Shown here piece by piece: positions 26,690-64,000 of a stretch of 64,000 nt of DNA. The first letter of the stretch is position 1. Each line of letters begins with the position of its first letter. The DNA comes from Ferrithrix thermotolerans DSM 19514 (GTDB taxonomy: Bacteria > Actinomycetota > Acidimicrobiia > Acidimicrobiales > Acidimicrobiaceae): the NCBI RefSeq assembly GCF_900128965.1, contig NZ_FQUL01000003.1, positions 62,001 to 126,000 of the forward strand, written 5' to 3'. The position numbers were made by a program, and so were the translations under genes. The notes beneath the pieces are model-generated. The model saw only the letters and a list, made by a program, of their open reading frames with translations. It was not told the DNA's origin and searched no databases.

Positions 26690-26727
26690 GGGGCAGTCCC
26701 TGATAGGGGGCTGTCCCTTTATCGTTT
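26690..26727 (+). terminator. Intrinsic terminator of groES-groEL
   Basis: GGGGCAGTCCC and GGGGGCTGTCCC pair across a TGATA loop into an 11-bp stem with one bulged G and two G-U pairs. TTTATCGTTTT follows. It lies 38 nt after the groEL stop and separates it from the convergent kdpE relic. Confidence 0.8.
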
Positions 26728-26773
26728 TAGGTTTTGGAGGCGGCTTCGTGTTGGAGGCCTTGGTGGTATCACA

Positions 26774-27475
26774 CTACAACTCGATGCGGTAAGCCATGCC
26801 AGGTTTTGTTCGAATGAGATCCTCTCCATAAGGGCCGAGCTTCCTGCGAAGACGGTTTATGTATACCCTCAGATAGTTTGTCTCTGAGAAGTACTCCGCC
26901 CCCCACACCTCTTTCAGGAGGTCTTCGTGCGTAAAGATCTTGCCAGTATGAGAGGCTAATAGACAAAGAAGGTCGTACTCTTTTGCCGTTACTTCGATGG
27001 GGTTGTCGTCTACGAACACCTCGTGTCTGACTGTATCTAAAATTACGTGTAGACCGAGTAGGATTTGGGTGCTCTTGTGTTCAGTCCTCACTACCTGTGT
27101 GTTTAGATAGGTAAGACTACCCTCAGGCGTGCAAGTAGCTCCCCCATTGAATGTGGCTTGGTAACGTAGTTATCCACACCCGATATCCAGCGCACGAATC
27201 TTCATTTCTTCATCTGGGGTTGCTGAGAGAACTATGATCGGAGCACTGCTAAAGGGCTGATGGTTCGGCACAGGGAGACCCCGTCTATGTCGGAAAGCCC
27301 AAGATCCAAGATAAATGCATTTGAGGATGTCTCTACGGTTGCCTCAACTCCGCTTTCGGCGTTTAAAGCGTATGGCCACCTCATAACCCTTTGAGGTTAG
27401 GCCTGTGCGCAACGCAGTCAGGAGGGATGGGTCGTCGTCGATGACAACTACCTTGTGGATTATGGTTCTACCCTG
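26774..27475 (-). pseudogene. kdpE: Decayed KdpE-like response regulator
   Basis: The C-terminal winged-helix domain is still open at 26774-27091 (TAKEYDLLCLLASHTGKIFTHEDLL given as EYDLLCLLASHTGKIF and ...NRLRRKLGPYGEDLIRTKPGMAYRI). The receiver domain upstream is readable only by changing frame: KVVVIDDDPSLLTAL, then NAFILDLGLSDIDGVSLCRT, then APIIVLSATPDEEMKIRALDIG, then VDNYVTKPHSMGELLARL. At least three frameshifts and an in-frame stop separate these pieces. KdpE activates the high-affinity potassium pump operon; no kdpFABC genes are in the window. The surviving DNA-binding part could in theory still be made, but that is unlikely. Confidence 0.85.
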
Positions 27476-27479
27476 CTCT

Positions 27480-28935
27480 CTCTAATGCGGCGGGCTCTTT
27501 GACTTGCGGTATTATGAAGAAAAACGTGGTTCGCCCCTCTGTGTAAGGTGCTACTGATATAGTTCCACTATGCAGATCGATAAGGGTGTGGGCGATCCAA
27601 AGACCAAGGCTGCTTGACTTGGTCTACCTAGCTCGATTGGAAAAATCGAACAGATGTCCTCTTGCATCTTTGTCGGAATCATCGGTCCGTAGTTGGTAAC
27701 CGCTACTCTTATCTCTTCTTGCGTTAATGAGAGCCTAACGGTTACAGCCTTGTTCTTTGGGCTATGTCGGATAGAGATTTCAACTAGGTTAGCGACGACC
27801 CGAGATACTGGGGTCTTATCAAGGTACACCGCTGATATCGGGGTATCTGGATCTATGAACGATACTTTTGAGACAGACTTCTCGCCAAGGGTTCTTACTC
27901 CTTCGACTACCGTTTCAAAGATGTCACGCCTAGAGAGGCGGAGCTTCAACATTCCCGACTGTACCTTTGTTGCGTCTAAGAGATTGAAGACCATCTGCGT
28001 AAGTCTGTCTGGATTGATCTAGTGTTTGAAGGTGTTGAAAGGTCGTTGGGCTTAGTCTGGACTCGGGGCCTGCTAGGACCGACGTTGCTGCTTCGATAAA
28101 AGCCAAATAGGGTTCTAAAGTCATGAGACACCGTCTCCAAAAGGATCCTTCTCCACCGATCGACCTTTACAAGTTCTCGAGTCCTCGAGGATTCTTTGTC
28201 CAAGATCGCTTTATGCAGAGCGAGAGCGCTCTGGCTGATAAATACAGAAAGTAGTTCTAAGCGAGCTTGAGGCAACTCTGGACCTTTGGTTATCAACATC
28301 CCTAGAAGTACCCCAGAGGAGCTAAGGGGCATCCCTGTAGTGATCTTGTTCGAGCTATCTTCGCCGCATCTGCGAAACTGACTTGTATGAATGCTTCCTC
28401 TCCTGGGGGGTGAGCGACGCGATAACGTCACTTTGGATCGGCCGTCCGAGAGCGATCATCTCTTTGAGATTATGTGTCATGTCCGAGAGGTAAAGAGAGA
28501 CCGAATCTAAGGCTGATACCTCAAATAAAGCTTCTGCTGTGGCTGCGGTTACGATCTCGGGGGATCTTTGACCAACGAGATCCTGCTAGAACTCCATGAG
28601 TCGCCTTGTATCTCTACTTGCCTGATCTGCACGTCCCCTAGCTTCCTTTAGATCGAGACCACCAGCATCACTGTGGTGTGGATCACCAGGGCAACCCAGT
28701 TTTGGCTTTCTCCCACGGAAAGTGTGTAGTAGAGAGGATAAGGACATGGTTGTATTTTAAGAACCCTACTGCAACATCAAAGGCGCCTATGTAAAAACCA
28801 TCTGTCGAGACTCCGACGACGGGGACCATCAGTATTAGTGCCGTTGTAGAGATGGAGAGGGAAGCCCGAAAAGGAACGATCGCTAAGGCGAGAACGATAA
28901 AGGGGCCAAGTGATACTCCAACTGCCACATAAGGT
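27480..28935 (-). pseudogene. kdpD: Decayed KdpD C-terminal part: membrane, GAF and histidine-kinase region
   Basis: Read from 28935 downwards, the fragments follow KdpD order. The membrane domain comes first (SLSISTTALILMVPVVGV, IGAFDVAVGFLKYN), then the GAF remnant GMPLSSSGVLLGMLIT. Next is the dimerisation helix with the phosphorylatable His (RILLETVSHDFRT), then the ATPase domain (SRVVANLVEISIRHSPKNKAVTV and a broken G-box). The last piece is EGRTTFFFIIPQVKEP. Each sits in a different frame or is interrupted by stops. It runs into the kdpE relic in the same orientation. The N-terminal half lies on the opposite strand next door. Confidence 0.8.
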
Positions 28936-29032
28936 TGTCTGGAAGGGGACGCAGTCCTGATGGCTATGTGCTAGCTATCTTGGCGGCGCTTACTAGGTTG
29001 GTCGAGAGGCGATTCCTTTGGCAGGAGATACG

Positions 29033-30110
29033 ATGAACCAGGGAGCTCTCGTTGATCCGGCGGGTAAGTTTCGCATATATCTAGGCGTTGCTGCTGGTGT
29101 TGGGAAAACGGTTGCGATGCTAGATGAAGGGCGCTCTGGGTTGAAACGTGGTGCTGATGTCGTTATGGGCTTTGTGGAGACGCATCAGAGGACCAACGTG
29201 GCAGCCAGGTTATAGGGGATGGAGATAGTTCTGTCTAAGAAGGTAGCGTACCGAGGGTCGGTATTTGAGGAGATGGATCTTGAGCAATCTTGGCAAGGCA
29301 GCTTAGGTGGTACTGATAGACGAGCTTGCGCACTCTAACGTGTCTGGCAGTGGAAGGCACGAAAAAAGGTGGGAGGATGTGCTGGATGTGCTTTCGAGGG
29401 GAACTTCGGTAGTTATAACTTGGAACATTCAGCACCTAGGGTCTGTAGCCGACGCTGTCGAGGAGTTTGTGGGTGCAAAGGTTCGGGAGCGTGTTCCAGA
29501 CCAGGTTGTTAGGAGGGCGGATCAGATCAAACTCGTCGACTCCTCCATATAGCAGCTAAGAAGACGGCTGTTGCATGCAGATGTATATCCACCTGAAAGG
29601 ATTGAAGGTGCTTTTTCTAACTTCTTTCGATTTGAAACCTATCAGCCCTGCGTGAGTTGGCGTTGCGCTTCTTAGCCGATGAGACAGAAGAGGAGATGCT
29701 CACCTATCTCTCAAAGTTTCATAATCCCAAGGCCTTTGAGAACACCGAGAGGATAGTGGACGGGGTGACAAGTGCCCCGGATACCGATCACCTTTTATAC
29801 AGAGCAGTCCTATGGCCAAGAGAGCCCGTACCCCGCTTATGGCTGTGCACGTTAGCCAGGACGAAGACGGACGTAAGATCGACGAGGTTAGAAAGATCTG
29901 TGGTGATCTTGGGGCCACTTTATACGACCTACCAGGGGACTACGTGGCTACTGTGCTTTTTAGTTTTCAAAGGAACATTAGATTACCCAGATAGTGGTAG
30001 GGGCGTCACAACGTAGCCGAGTCGCTGAACTGATAAAGGGATCCTTGCTCAGCAAGGTTCTTCGCCTCGCCAGCCATACTAGCGTCGGTGTACGCGTAGT
30101 CGCACAATGA
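29033..30110 (+). pseudogene. kdpD: Decayed KdpD N-terminal part: KdpD and universal-stress-like domains
   Basis: The start ATGAACCAGGG lies behind CAGGAG, with KFRIYLGVAAGVGKTVAMLDEG, the Walker-like loop typical of KdpD, and VVMGFVETHQRT. An in-frame TAG follows, then EEMDLE. A frameshift leads to VVLIDELAHSNVSGSGRHEKRW and NIQHLGSVADAVEEF, then LLHADVYPPERIEGAFSNFF. Another shift gives LRELALRFLADETEEEM, and another MAKRARTPLMAVHVSQDEDG. The USP-like piece ends near 30100. At least four lesions make it nonfunctional. Its orientation is opposite to the kinase half. Confidence 0.82.
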
Positions 30111-30464
30111 AGACAAGAGTCGGGTCTTACTTACATGGATGAGGTAGAGGAGTCTTAGATACACGAACTCTACTTTTGTAGGTGTTTACGGGGATTGCTT
30201 TGACGCTGCGGTTCAGACAGATAGGCTTTGCAGAGGTGGAGGTTCATCAACCTCTCAAAGCGTGAGCGGTGAGACCACACAGACTCAAGTAGAAAATTGA
30301 GGTTTCCTTTGCTGTGACAGCGGTGCGAACATGTCAACTAAGTCTCACAACCTATTAGTAACCTCTGGTTGTACGGCTATTATTGATCCAAATAAGGTTG
30401 GCACTGAGATCGCATCACTAGGTCCATGTTGTGTCTCTCGTGCGTCGGTTGAAATGGAGGCTCT
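30111..30464 (+). other. Gene-free stretch before guaB3
   Basis: About 350 nt between the kdpD relic and guaB3. It may contain further worn-out kdpD sequence and the guaB3 promoter, but no confident -35/-10 pair, hairpin or conserved peptide could be picked out. The GGAGG ribosome-binding site of guaB3 is at 30456-30460. Confidence 0.6.
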
Positions 30465-58320: not shown

Positions 58321-59352
58321 TTGGCAAAGACGGCGATTAGGTGGCGTTTTTTCTTTATGGCGCTTCCGGTGGTGGTGTTGATTGGATGGGCGACTGGGTT
58401 CTCGATCCCTGAATACTCGATCTCGCCGGGCCAGGCTATTGACACGGCTACCTTGGTGACGGTTCCCCAGGTGCGACCCAAGGATTACGTCGGCTCCATC
58501 TACATGACCGATGTTACCCTTATCCACTTGACTCCGATTCTGTGGATATACGATCACGTTGTCTCTGACGTCTCGATCTATCCCGCTTCAGAGATAGTGG
58601 GGAGTTCCGATCCATCCCAGTTCTCTCAGCAGCAGCTCTCCCAGATGGCGAACGCAAAACTTGCCGCCGGAGTTGCAGCGTTTAGCTACCTAAACCGTCG
58701 CGTACCGGAGGTATACGGCGCTGAGGTTCTTGCCACCGTTCCTGGGACACCGGCTTACGGCGTATTACGACCCGGTGATCTCGTAACGGAAGTAGGAGGT
58801 AAGACGGTTACTTCGATGTCGACGTTTGCGGCCGCAATCACATCCTACCCCCCTGGCTCAGTCGTTAGATTGTTAGTGATTAGGCAAAACGTCAACTCCA
58901 GTTCTTTAGACTTCAAACGTATCAGCTTTACCGTAAAGCTTGGGAGCGATCCACGTAACGGAAAGAAGGCCTTTTTAGGAGTCGAGTACACCCAGGGAGT
59001 ATTTTACGTTCTGCCTGGATCGATCAAGATAGCTACAGGTGAGATTGGAGGTCCGTCGGCAGGTCTAGCCTTCGCTCTGCAACTGGTGCAGGAACTCTCG
59101 CACCATAGGTTTGCTAGAGGTGTCAAGGTAGCAGCGACGGGGACCATAGCGCCGAACGGGATCGTTGGTGAAGTTGGAGGAGTCCCTCAGAAAGCCGTTG
59201 CGGTTTATAGAGCCGGTGTCAAGATCTTCCTGGTTCCTAAGCAACAGGTGTCTCAAGCGAGAACCTATGTAGGGAAGAAGCTCACAATCATAGGCGTCTC
59301 AAGCCTTTCGCAGGCAATTGATGCTATAAAGGGGCTGCGAGGTATCTCTTAG
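58321..59352 (+). CDS. PDZ and Lon-type serine protease (YlbL/SepM-like)
   Basis: One N-terminal signal-anchor helix (FFFMALPVVVLIGWATGF) precedes a PDZ domain around residues 130-200 (GVLRPGDLVTEVGGKTV) and a Lon proteolytic domain. In that domain GEIGGPSAGLAFAL holds the active Ser246 and GVPQKAVAVYRAGV the Lys291 base. TTG at 58321 follows AAGGTG by 4 nt. The family cleaves outside-facing membrane or secreted substrates. It lies directly before the coiled-coil gene and close to the UPF0182 gene, an actinobacterial neighbourhood I recall from mycobacteria. Confidence 0.9.
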   Translation: MAKTAIRWRFFFMALPVVVLIGWATGFSIPEYSISPGQAIDTATLVTVPQVRPKDYVGSIYMTDVTLIHLTPILWIYDHVVSDVSIYPASEIVGSSDPSQFSQQQLSQMANAKLAAGVAAFSYLNRRVPEVYGAEVLATVPGTPAYGVLRPGDLVTEVGGKTVTSMSTFAAAITSYPPGSVVRLLVIRQNVNSSSLDFKRISFTVKLGSDPRNGKKAFLGVEYTQGVFYVLPGSIKIATGEIGGPSAGLAFALQLVQELSHHRFARGVKVAATGTIAPNGIVGEVGGVPQKAVAVYRAGVKIFLVPKQQVSQARTYVGKKLTIIGVSSLSQAIDAIKGLRGIS

Positions 59353-59370: not shown

Positions 59371-61677
59371 ATGCGCGGTATTAGAGAGGGTGAGGGAGTT
59401 GTGAACGGTGGATCCGAGACTACGCCAAGATTCCCCATTGTTCGTAAGGGGCTGGATCAGAGGGAGGTCTACCCTTATCTCGAGCGTCTAAAGCTTAGGA
59501 TAGAGGAGCTAGAGCGGGACAACCAGCGCTTGCAGGGGGAGTTGGAAGAACTAAGACGACAGGTTGAGAACCCAGAACTTGACATCGATAGAGTTACAGA
59601 GATCTTTGGTAAGCAAGCCTCCGAGATCTTGCGAAGCGCACATGACATCTCCTCGTCGATAAGAAAGCGTGCTGAGCTGAACGCTAAAGACATTATTTCG
59701 AAGGCTGAAAGGCAGGCTACTGATCTAGAACTCCAAGCATCAGTTGCTGCCGAGGCTCAGATGACGGAGGCTGCAGAACGAGCCAGAGAAATTGTGGACA
59801 GGGCCAAGGCAGAGGCTACCGAGATCATTGCGCTAGCTGAACAGGGAGCTCAGAGTATCTCGGAACGTGCAAAGGCGGAAGGTCGATCACTTCTTCATAG
59901 GGCTCGGGAACTTCGTAGCAAGGTATTCAATGAGATGCAGAGCAGAATTGAACTCCTCAATAGCGATATTGAGGAGTTGGAAACCTCACGGACCACGCTT
60001 TTGCAGATGCTTAGCGCCGCAGAGACCGTCCTCTCTGAAGTGAAAAGAGACATAGTTGGCAGATCAGTCGTGTCAGACGTTCTGGAGACACAGGGTGTTG
60101 AAGACGAACTCGAAGGCAATGTTCTAGTCGCCGAAGATCTGAGCCTCGCACACGAGGAAAACTTGCTTACCCCCCTTTATGAGGAGGGAGACACCTTAGG
60201 AGCTAGCGACCACGAAGATCTGCCAACTGAACATCGCCTAGGTGACCTCTTATCTAGAGGTAGGGGTTCCGATCTCGATGACCAGAGCGAAGACTCTGCT
60301 CGAAATGAAGCTGCAGGCGAGGTCACCAAAGATTCCGATACTTTGCAGTCGGAGGCGAAAGGTTTCGTAGAAGAAAACCGTGTTGCGGGCGAGTTGCACA
60401 CAGAAGATCTGTATGAAGGTGTGATCTCGATAAGGCCCATCCCAACCTCAGCTGAAGTTCTAGGTGATAGCAGTTTTGACAGCGAGCCTTTGGACGATGA
60501 GAGCCTCGTAGATGACTTTGATGATAAAAGTTTTCCCGTGGACGTAGAGGCTGCGGCCACGGTATGTTTCGATGATCAAGTTCTCGAGACGGAGGTGCAC
60601 GGAAGTGATGAGACCTCTGTCGCTGGTGACCCATCTTGGGGAATCGATGAGGAAAAAACAGAGGTGTTTGCCGCATTGTCGACGGGGGAAACAGATCCGC
60701 AAGATGTGGATGATGAAACAGACGAACCTTTGAAATATAGGGAAACCATTGCTCATAGTTCGCATGCGAACGACTCTCACGAACCTGAGGAAGCAGTCGA
60801 AGAATCCTTGCAGCTAGATCTCCTTGAGAAGCTTTTTGAGCGACTAAGAGAGGGAAGATCTCAAGAAGTGCAAGTTGCGTCGCAAACAGTGGACGTTGCG
60901 GTGAAAGATAGCCTAGATCTAAAAGATCAAACGACTTCAGAGCCTGCTTTAGGAGTTGATCTCATAAGCGAGACCAGGCACGAAACAAGCGTTCAGTCTG
61001 ACACCAGCGTTCCAGACTACTCCGAGATGCTCAATCGACGCGAGGAGGCGCTCTCTGAGCCTTCACTACAGATGTCTAGACGCGTAAAGAGATTGCTTCA
61101 AGACGATCAGAATGAGCTGCTTGACGTACTAAGAAAGTCTGGGGTAGATGGGCTTCTGAAGAGGCTAAATGAGCTTTTGACTAAATTTCATAGTCACTCT
61201 ATGGAGATCTATGAGTACCTGGAGCGTTCTAGGAGCGAGGGGCTTAGGCTTTTCGTCGACCAAGGAGTTGAAGTGGAGTTAGATGTAGCGGAGCTGATGC
61301 AAGTTGCCGAGGACGTCTGCTCTTTGATTGCTGAACTTTCACTCAAGAGAGTTATGGCGATCTACTCCTCCATCGAAAGCGGGGAGGGGCAAGATCAAGT
61401 AGCGCTTATCAACTCAATCTACAGGGACTTGCGCGTGCAGAAGGTAGACGAGATCGTGGGTGACTATGTAAACTCTGCCTTTAACCTTGGGGTCCGTAAC
61501 GTTCCAGGACTCTCGTCGCTGAACTGGGTAACCTTCGATCTTGGCGGGAACTGTTCAGACTGTGATGACAACACACTGGCAAATCCAAATCCAAAAGATG
61601 AAGATTTCCCAACAGGTCATAAGGTTCCACCCGTGCATCCGGGCTGTCGATGTCTGATTGTCCCAACTATCGCCTAG
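59371..61677 (+). CDS. Large coiled-coil protein with a phage Mu F-like C-terminal motif
   Basis: The 768-residue product starts with a DivIVA-like coiled coil (residues about 35-240: LERLKLRIEELERDNQRL and long heptads of A/E/R). A long acidic, probably disordered stretch follows (about 240-560). A helical C-terminus ends with C728xxC731 and GHKVPPVHPGCRCLI (H756, C759, C761). The last motif resembles the CxxC...HPxCRC end of Mu gpF / SPP1 gp7 minor head proteins. GTG at 59401 behind GAGGGAG may be the true start. No phage gene is nearby. Confidence 0.7.
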   Translation: MRGIREGEGVVNGGSETTPRFPIVRKGLDQREVYPYLERLKLRIEELERDNQRLQGELEELRRQVENPELDIDRVTEIFGKQASEILRSAHDISSSIRKRAELNAKDIISKAERQATDLELQASVAAEAQMTEAAERAREIVDRAKAEATEIIALAEQGAQSISERAKAEGRSLLHRARELRSKVFNEMQSRIELLNSDIEELETSRTTLLQMLSAAETVLSEVKRDIVGRSVVSDVLETQGVEDELEGNVLVAEDLSLAHEENLLTPLYEEGDTLGASDHEDLPTEHRLGDLLSRGRGSDLDDQSEDSARNEAAGEVTKDSDTLQSEAKGFVEENRVAGELHTEDLYEGVISIRPIPTSAEVLGDSSFDSEPLDDESLVDDFDDKSFPVDVEAAATVCFDDQVLETEVHGSDETSVAGDPSWGIDEEKTEVFAALSTGETDPQDVDDETDEPLKYRETIAHSSHANDSHEPEEAVEESLQLDLLEKLFERLREGRSQEVQVASQTVDVAVKDSLDLKDQTTSEPALGVDLISETRHETSVQSDTSVPDYSEMLNRREEALSEPSLQMSRRVKRLLQDDQNELLDVLRKSGVDGLLKRLNELLTKFHSHSMEIYEYLERSRSEGLRLFVDQGVEVELDVAELMQVAEDVCSLIAELSLKRVMAIYSSIESGEGQDQVALINSIYRDLRVQKVDEIVGDYVNSAFNLGVRNVPGLSSLNWVTFDLGGNCSDCDDNTLANPNPKDEDFPTGHKVPPVHPGCRCLIVPTIA

Positions 61678-61687
61678 TTTTGTTGTT

Positions 61688-64000
61688 ATGCGTGTTCCCG
61701 GTGACATAGTTCAGAGGAGAGGCGACTCCTCAAAGCGACAGGTTGTTATTGTACTGGTCGTCGCTGCCTTAGTGGTTCTTATCCTGTCTCTTAGAGGGAT
61801 TGCGGTCTTTTATACAGACTATCTTTGGTTCCGTAGCATAAATCTCTCTGTTGTTTGGCGGAACACCCTCTTTGCAAAGCTTGAGCTCGCTGGAGCTTTT
61901 ACGGTCGGGTTCTTTGTTCTAAGCCTAATCAGCCTTACCATCGCAGATAAGATGCAAACACAGGTTCCGCCCGTAGACGCTAACAAAGATGAACTGGTTG
62001 CTCGCTACGGACAGTCGAAGGAGCGTCACCCCAGACTTCTTAGAGTGCTGGCGTCTTTAGTTGCAGCTCTCATAGTCGGATCAGGTGCTTCGGCACAGTG
62101 GAAGTCCTTCATACTCTTTCAGCACTCGGTACCGTTTCATAAGGTCGATCCACAGTTCCACATGGACTATAGCTTTTTCGTCTTCAAACTCCCGTTTCTT
62201 ATGTTTCTAGTACGTTGGAGTTTCCTGGCGCTTGTGATCATCTTTATACTGACCACCGGTCTTTACTATCTGAACGGAAACATTCGATCCCAGGGTCGAG
62301 CGCCTAGGGTGTCTCCGAAGGTTAAGGCACATATGTCGGTTTTATTAGCTCTCTTAGCCATTGTCAAGGCCTATGGGTATTACCTTCAGAGATTTCAGCT
62401 CGACACATCTACCAGTGGATACGTTGAAGGGGCTGCCTACACAGATGTACATGCTTTATTGCCTGCTCTGACGTTGTTGGTCTTTATATCCTTAGGTGCT
62501 GGTGTATTGTTTGTTATCAACATAAGGCGGCAGGGGTGGGTATTGCCGCTTATCGGCTTGGGGCTATGGGCGTTCCTCTCACTGGTGCTCGGTGCAATAT
62601 ATCCGGCAATTATTCAACAGTTCGTGGTTCAGCCGGCCCAAGGGACGAAAGAGCTTCCTTACATTGCACGTAACATCGAGGCCACCCGCTACGGAATGAG
62701 CCTTGAGAATGTTCAGACGCAAAATTACAACGCTTCTCAAAATATAAGTGGACAAGGGATCCGAGCTTATGCAAAGACTCTGGCCGGCGTGAGATTGTGG
62801 GATGCCTCTGTCGCACTTCCTACCTTCGATAAGCTCCAGGACATACGCTCTTACTACCACTTCAACTCCCTTGCGGTAGACGATTACTCAATAGACGGCA
62901 CCAAGACGCCGATCATACTTGGTATAAGGCAACTAAACTCCTCAAACCTTCCGTCTCAGTCATGGGTGAACCTGCACCTTCAGTACACTCATGGATATGG
63001 TGCGGTAGTTGCCCCTGCTAACAAGGTCAACTCGGACGGTAATCCCAACTTCCTACTAGCCAATCTCCCCCCAAGTGCTCAAAGTGGCGCTCCTTCCTTG
63101 ACGCAACCTCAGGTGTATTACTCTTTGAATAATCCGGGATACGTAATTGCGAACTCGCGGCAACCCGAGATCGATTACCAGGTTCCATCGGGGTTGAGCG
63201 TGGAGACCCACTACGCAGGTTCTGGAGGCGTGCGGCTTTCCTCAACCCTGATCAAGGCTGCATTTGCACTTAGATATGGCGATATCAACATTCTCATCTC
63301 CTCTTTGGTCGATACCAACTCACGGCTGATGTTGCGGCGAGACATTCAGGTCGAGGCCCAAGATGCGGCACCGTTTCTAAAGTTTGGCTCTAATCCCTAT
63401 CCTGTGATTGCGAACGGTTCGATATATTGGGTTCAAAATGCTTATACAACGACGAGCCAGTTACCATATGGACAGGCCGCTGATGTTTCGAATCTCTCAC
63501 CGTCAAGTGGTCTAAATGCCTACTTTAACTACGTGAGAAACTCCGTCAAGGTCGTCACCAATGCCTATACCGGCCAGATGACTTTCTACGTTTCTGATCC
63601 CAGGGACCCGATCATACGAGCGTATGAGGCTGAGTTCCCAGGTGTGTTCAAGCCCATGTCGCAGATGAGTCAGGCGTTGCGATCGCACATGAGGTATCCA
63701 GAAGACCTCTTTGTGGTGCAAAGCACTATGTATGGCAAGTATCACGTTACCAATGCCTCCAACTTCTACAGTGCAGGCAGTGCCTGGACTTTGTCTCCTA
63801 ATCCAGGAAACGGGTCTCCCAGCGCTGCTCTAAGTCAGACTGTGACGACCAATGCAGCAGGGTTTCCAGTGTCCTCCCAGATTAGTGCGATGCCGCCTCT
63901 ATATGAGCAGCTCACCTTACCAAACTCCGATGAGCCTCACTTTGGGATCGTGGAAGCTTTTGTGCCGATAAGCCAGACGCAGGTGCAGCAAAACTTGACA
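61688..64000 (+). CDS. UPF0182 family membrane protein (truncated by the window end)
   Basis: The frame is open from ATG 61688 to the last base, giving 771 codons of a protein usually about 900-1000 residues long. Several N-terminal membrane helices are seen (VVIVLVVAALVVLILSL, then ARFYTDYLWF-like AVFYTDYLWFRS). A central family sequence follows (PAIIQQFVVQPAQGTKELPYI, RNIEATRYGM), then ATL-type large outside domain sequence (AYEAEFPGVFKPM, HMRYPEDLF). UPF0182 proteins are conserved in actinobacteria and of unknown function. The ATG lacks a clear ribosome-binding site. Confidence 0.93.
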   Translation, partial: MRVPGDIVQRRGDSSKRQVVIVLVVAALVVLILSLRGIAVFYTDYLWFRSINLSVVWRNTLFAKLELAGAFTVGFFVLSLISLTIADKMQTQVPPVDANKDELVARYGQSKERHPRLLRVLASLVAALIVGSGASAQWKSFILFQHSVPFHKVDPQFHMDYSFFVFKLPFLMFLVRWSFLALVIIFILTTGLYYLNGNIRSQGRAPRVSPKVKAHMSVLLALLAIVKAYGYYLQRFQLDTSTSGYVEGAAYTDVHALLPALTLLVFISLGAGVLFVINIRRQGWVLPLIGLGLWAFLSLVLGAIYPAIIQQFVVQPAQGTKELPYIARNIEATRYGMSLENVQTQNYNASQNISGQGIRAYAKTLAGVRLWDASVALPTFDKLQDIRSYYHFNSLAVDDYSIDGTKTPIILGIRQLNSSNLPSQSWVNLHLQYTHGYGAVVAPANKVNSDGNPNFLLANLPPSAQSGAPSLTQPQVYYSLNNPGYVIANSRQPEIDYQVPSGLSVETHYAGSGGVRLSSTLIKAAFALRYGDINILISSLVDTNSRLMLRRDIQVEAQDAAPFLKFGSNPYPVIANGSIYWVQNAYTTTSQLPYGQAADVSNLSPSSGLNAYFNYVRNSVKVVTNAYTGQMTFYVSDPRDPIIRAYEAEFPGVFKPMSQMSQALRSHMRYPEDLFVVQSTMYGKYHVTNASNFYSAGSAWTLSPNPGNGSPSAALSQTVTTNAAGFPVSSQISAMPPLYEQLTLPNSDEPHFGIVEAFVPISQTQVQQNLT

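Follow-up and report, generated by a model that had tools for sequence, protein, structure and literature searches.

What is a domain known from the heads of tailed phages doing at the end of a protein that otherwise resembles a scaffold of the bacterial cell pole? This question is raised by a gene of Ferrithrix thermotolerans DSM 19514 that lies near the end of the stretch of DNA analysed here, which is 64,000 nucleotides long and is referred to as the window (Table 1). The open frame is a real gene. Its reverse complement is riddled with stop codons, and translation could begin either at the ATG at 59371 or at a nearby GTG at 59401. The product consists of a hairpin, a coiled coil, a 300-residue acidic linker and a 223-residue helical domain closed by a CxxC...HPGCRC arrangement.

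Table 1. Positions in the window of the DivIVA-MuF gene, its parts and its two neighbours.
Feature	Position	Strand	Basis and remarks
SepM/YlbL-type membrane PDZ-Lon (S16) protease	58321..59352	+	18 nt upstream of the DivIVA-MuF gene; Lon_C 9.4e-10, PDZ
DivIVA-linker-MuF protein	59371..61677	+	768 aa; ORF and orthologues
DivIVA N-terminal domain, residues 22-120 (FPIVRKGLDQREV hairpin motif and start of coiled coil)	59434..59730	+	PF05103, PDB profile matches, AF2
Coiled-coil region, residues 32-245 (limits set by eye)	59464..60105	+	Sequence; AF2 helices in residues 30-124; omega about 0.05 in close orthologue pairs
Acidic fast-evolving linker, residues 246-545, net charge -64	60106..61005	+	Charge, omega
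MuF-derived C-terminal domain, residues 546-768	61006..61674	+	Profile matches, AF2 model, hhalign
Helical bundle of the MuF-derived domain, RRxKRxLQDxQNxLLDxLR signature	61006..61515	+	AF2 helices, conserved residues
Predicted zinc hairpin, W719...C728xxC731...PTGH..PPVH756PGC759RC761	61525..61674	+	Alignment conservation; hhalign
UPF0182 membrane protein (PF03699)	61688..64000	+	Likely ATG at 61688, 10 nt past the DivIVA-MuF stop; continues beyond the window end

The N-terminal end carries the (R/K)G(Y/F/L)D..EV hairpin motif and the coiled coil that the DivIVA family demands. PF05103 matches the window protein at 1.1e-7, and its 32.3 bits satisfy the family cut-off of 28; the same model was found in all 20 orthologue N-termini scanned (best 2.8e-17). 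A profile built from these 20 N-termini retrieved from the PDB the N-domain of Bacillus subtilis DivIVA (2wuj, 7.9e-13) and Wag31 (6lfa, 4e-7), as well as GpsB. In the AlphaFold (AF2) model of this end, a pair of short strands leads into long helices. The window protein has RKGLD in place of the usual RGYD motif, and many orthologues have RGYD or RGFD. Together with the net charge of -64 over residues 246-545, the PF05103 score bears out an earlier note on this DNA, which had described a DivIVA-like coiled coil with an acidic linker. The hairpin with its GYD-type motif and the coiled coil are shared with the DivIVA, Wag31 and GpsB scaffolds, whereas the acidic linker and the MuF-derived domain are additional. 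The canonical DivIVA of the same genome is encoded on another contig, in an FtsZ-SepF cluster, and the window protein is best explained as a second, specialised DivIVA-family scaffold paralogous to it. Both ends were found together on 89 fetched ORFs, some of which derive from overlapping loci of one genome.

The C-terminal end is less easily assigned from the window sequence alone. A direct scan of Pfam, NCBIfam and PHROGs returned only weak MuF-type matches, with TIGR01641 (NCBIfam) at 0.021; PF04233 was not matched in Pfam at E values up to 1, and its curated cut-off was thus not reached. Even the best orthologue, at 28.4 bits, falls below the cut-off of 29.6. In whole-genome searches, the protein matched phrog_2662, a phage portal family whose matched end is MuF-like, at 9.7e-4. 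The C-terminal 223 residues were aligned with those of 28 orthologues (alignment A1, 29 sequences). PF04233 was matched by 13 of these 29 (best 6.3e-6) and phrog_2662, the top profile match of the orthologues, by 26 (best 3.2e-14), and one orthologue found in the whole-genome searches covers positions 2-111 of the 112 in PF04233 at 4.1e-6. When the 29 orthologues were compared with ten phage MuF proteins by hhalign, a probability of 98.4% was obtained over 113 columns, and five column shuffles and one reversal all remained below 1%. The helix, the tryptophan strand and the CxxC and HPxCxC core are colinear with phage MuF, as homology requires. The AlphaFold model of the domain (pLDDT 92.7, pTM 0.89) matched 39 viral proteins at E values up to 1e-3 in a viral library, the named ones being mainly minor capsid, head morphogenesis and capsid maturation proteins. 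Because the orthologue matches to PF04233 and phrog_2662, the controlled hhalign comparison and the viral fold matches agree, homology of the C-terminal domain with the MuF (phage Mu F / SPP1 gp7) minor-head domain is well supported by sequence profiles and by predicted structure. The earlier note had proposed this relationship and would have been refuted by a lack of PF04233 similarity combined with another fold; as orthologues do match PF04233, that outcome did not arise. The window protein itself is filed as a divergent homologue of Phage_Mu_F (PF04233), not as a member.

Not every search contributed. The PDB fold search returned only generic helical bundles at E values above 0.5 (best Z 10.2, a designed bundle) and no solved MuF structure, which is not evidence for a new fold; a PDB sequence search with the C-terminal profile gave nothing relevant, and a scan of viral contigs using the alignment confirmed no relative. 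It could be argued that the C-terminus is an unrelated small zinc ribbon that has converged on the HPxCRC end of MuF. The window sequence alone does not match PF04233, and most of the profile signal lies within the hairpin, which on its own reaches 98.4%, the helical part alone being only weakly alignable (11%). We find convergence barely credible, given that the colinear match of helix, tryptophan strand and hairpin spans 113 columns, that an orthologue covers nearly the whole PF04233 model, that the viral fold matches span the whole domain, and that the host-domain profile picks up a phage portal-MuF protein at 55.9 bits.

The nearest phage relatives of this MuF-homologous domain are best explained as the MuF domains of portal-MuF fusion proteins. 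Most of the phage genes retrieved by tblastn encode head morphogenesis, minor capsid or portal proteins, and wherever a phage record was inspected, the related gene sits after the portal gene or is fused with it. Homologous C-terminal domains occur in such fusions (phrog_2662), as in gp3 of Arthrobacter phage Sonali and the putative portal of Brevundimonas phage Strzyga, the latter sharing W...CxxC...FPSGH..P.HPxCRC with the host domain. In phages the domain is joined to a portal within a capsid operon, whereas in the host it is joined to DivIVA within a chromosomal housekeeping cluster. With SPP1 gp7 and Mu gpF (PF04233, TIGR01641), homology spans the helix-strand-hairpin core, but the host protein stays under the curated cut-offs, has no adjacent portal and belongs to no virion. 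Prophages of relatives also encode portal-MuF fusions; a 1224-residue ORF with portal and MuF regions in one relative (L053:1841-5512, plus strand) is apparently such a fusion and a candidate donor type. In a tree of host and phage domains, a single origin of the host clade was not rejected (p-AU 0.53) but remains unproven, the columns being too few.

The residues named in the earlier note as possible zinc ligands (C728, C731, H756, C759 and C761) are all found at those positions in the window sequence. C759 and C761 do not vary in any of 81 non-redundant homologues (100%), and H756 (96%), W719 (95%), C728 (93%) and C731 (80%) are highly conserved, so the C-terminal Cys/His pattern is not due to chance. 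P747 also falls within the 93-98% band, as do the basic residues K573 and R574 (98%), R685 (93%) and, marginally below it, R588 (92%). At least four of the five candidate ligands are retained in most homologues; some drop one cysteine and keep the histidine, and a few replace the histidine and keep both cysteine pairs. Such changes are what a four-ligand zinc site drawn from five residues would tolerate, with neither metal data nor model coordinates at hand. Zinc binding by the hairpin is plausible, but it is inferred and has not been shown. With few exceptions among the 81 homologues, the C-terminal domain is acidic, its net charge averaging -8.8 (range -20 to +1).

The neighbourhood of the gene is strikingly constant. 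UPF0182 lies directly downstream in all 57 contexts read, 55 of which were assigned by an automatic rule and two (L042 and L125) through a UPF0182 frame listed as extending upstream. Within the class, the SepM/YlbL-type PDZ-Lon protease is found just upstream in 37 of 41 cases; outside it the protease is not directly upstream, and it lies a few kilobases upstream in some. The synteny check suggested in the earlier note thus agrees with its picture of a stable housekeeping setting beside a membrane protease. UPF0182 matches PF03699 at 1.7e-238 (on L034:5659-8616), and the protease matches the SepM family at 1.6e-29, yet under that family's cut-off. In many other Actinomycetota, protease and UPF0182 are adjacent with nothing in between. 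Past the window end, transposase-like ORFs (L034:11291-12541, minus strand) follow UPF0182 and a tRNA-Met gene (L034:8693-8767), which suggests that the region beyond these two is insertion-prone. Elsewhere in the window, few long ORFs were seen at 26700-30400, between GroEL-like and IMP-dehydrogenase-like genes; one of 151 residues (27976-28431, minus strand) resembles a sensor kinase fragment and is perhaps a decayed gene.

Of the MuF genes in bacterial chromosomes, 96% are reported to be associated with prophages, and what the MuF domain itself does is described as unknown (PMC5576092). From that statistic, the gene might be expected to be a prophage remnant, or the fusion an assembly artefact, but we give this practically no credence. 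No portal or terminase gene was recognised near it, and the fused gene recurs with its neighbours in dozens of independent assemblies, including the single-contig genomes G010, G037 and G041; a remnant or artefact is contradicted by this synteny and was rejected. With a protease and UPF0182 as neighbours and no portal, the gene does not meet the context expected of a phage minor head protein.

Of 60 near relatives, 54 gave a match to the full protein. The C-terminal domain was matched in 165 of the 247 class genomes, nearly always as a single copy, and a sample of 396 genomes from the whole phylum yielded it in 70; among these are families belonging to other classes, in which the protein has the same DivIVA N-terminus. 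These counts are lower bounds: genome G071 gave no match and has two divergent DivIVA-MuF / UPF0182 pairs (L196 and L197), neither with the zinc hairpin. In some other lineages too, the MuF domain stops before the hairpin, which has been lost repeatedly with retention of the bundle. The gene is absent from three families (f29, f31 and f40), where the protease abuts UPF0182, and in two lineages (family f90 and genome G046) a MuF-less DivIVA occupies the same position. In L107:3725-5827 and L123:4070-6385 (both plus strand), the C-terminal part seems shortened or broken by a frame change, the hairpin of L123 sitting in a different frame. As far as sequence comparison can show, the gene has been inherited mainly vertically.

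In close orthologue pairs, omega was 0.05-0.06 in the N-terminal part and 0.05-0.09 in the MuF part, against 0.23-0.45 in the linker. The contrast was absent in one outgroup pair that is more distant and whose sites are close to saturation, and other pairs were saturated. On these estimates, both ends are under strong purifying selection and the linker much less; selection therefore holds the MuF part about as tightly as the DivIVA part. Since the gene is single-copy across the class (at least 165 of 247 genomes), holds a fixed gene order and is under purifying selection, it is supported that the MuF end is a domesticated phage domain, as had been suspected in the earlier note, and that the hybrid gene is selectively maintained across the class. 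The motif had also been linked there with toxins and polymorphic secretion proteins. MuF polymorphic toxins likewise hold a MuF domain within a fusion, but their toxin domain extends C-terminal of it (Jamet et al. 2017, PMC5576092), whereas the host protein ends seven residues after C761 with no further domain. A toxin was rejected on this ground, and the suggested link is unsupported.

Among MuF proteins, SPP1 gp7 has been studied best; it binds strongly to the portal protein gp6 and enters the procapsid in a few copies (PMC6316719). A DivIVA-anchored MuF domain could thus serve as a host-encoded decoy that binds the portals of infecting phages and spoils head assembly, and the closest phage relatives do adjoin or fuse with portals, including those in prophages of related hosts. 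The wide single-copy distribution in a fixed housekeeping order, outside any defence island, and an omega that is very low instead of indicating diversification make a decoy very improbable. Among the known defence families in PADLOC, the best match of the window protein was 0.023, within its coiled coil, and does not qualify it as an anti-phage protein; a defence role was rejected for want of a PADLOC match of note, together with the fixed order and low omega.

We tentatively propose, at slightly below an even chance and without localisation or binding data, that the protein is a DivIVA-family scaffold whose domesticated MuF module docks UPF0182, and perhaps the protease, at a growth or division site. 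The DivIVA end would gather on curved membrane at the pole or septum and oligomerise, and the acidic linker would extend the C-terminal domain into the cytoplasm. There, the MuF-derived bundle, closed by its predicted Cys/His zinc hairpin, may act as a protein-docking module taken over from the capsid, where it would keep a minor head protein attached to the portal. Its likeliest clients would be encoded in its own gene cluster, namely the UPF0182 membrane protein and perhaps also the SepM/YlbL-type protease; the scaffold would gather them where the cell grows or divides. That it acts at the pole or septum is plausible, although inferred without localisation data. A functional link to UPF0182 is favoured by the invariant adjacency and by the MuF-less DivIVA found at the same place in two other lineages.

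RacA and Wag31-ParA systems tie the nucleoid or origin to a DivIVA-marked pole, and the MuF-derived domain might likewise bind DNA as a chromosome tether. The title of Stiege et al. 2003, as cited in PMC6316719, calls gp7 a DNA-binding protein, and K573, R574, R588 and R685 are conserved basic residues. We consider a tether improbable: the domain is attached to a very acidic linker, and the gene neighbourhood speaks for membrane proteins instead of parABS. Protein docking is favoured over DNA binding because the host domain is itself acidic.

Several observations nevertheless weigh against docking. The hairpin, the MuF part or the whole gene is missing in several lineages, and the helical part aligns only weakly with phage MuF. 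UPF0182 is still present where the gene is missing, so it does not need the DivIVA-MuF partner; and a column search found no convincing UPF0182 residues or long insertions separating gene-bearing from gene-less genomes, so the docking partner remains a guess. The same lack of a co-varying feature, the loss of the hairpin with the bundle kept and the two MuF-less lineages would also suit a mainly structural domain that dimerises or caps the DivIVA filament without clients, its hairpin merely stabilising the bundle. This is unlikely but cannot be set aside; in most of the class, the helix signature and the hairpin are conserved down to their motifs, which seems to exceed what a cap would need.

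We take Rv3193c to be the UPF0182 gene of M. tuberculosis. In Tn-seq, Rv3193c came up as a hit with the divisome protein Rv0954, alongside rodA, pbpA and perM (PMC8093794). This link and the gene pairing with UPF0182 suggest that the scaffold helps to organise proteins of envelope growth or division. More speculatively, and on the unlikely side without being negligible, a phage head-assembly domain may have been captured early in actinobacterial history, fused to DivIVA and left still docking a ring-shaped or membrane oligomer, now a UPF0182-containing envelope complex of the host at the pole or septum.

In summary, no published report of a DivIVA-MuF fusion was found in the open-access literature. 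A MuF domain, otherwise reported as almost always prophage-associated in chromosomes, is retained here in a gene of the host, class-wide and also outside the class, on a scaffold of the cell-pole type. This provides a non-viral setting in which to learn what the MuF fold binds, and UPF0182, a large and uncharacterised family of actinobacterial membrane proteins, gains a candidate scaffold.
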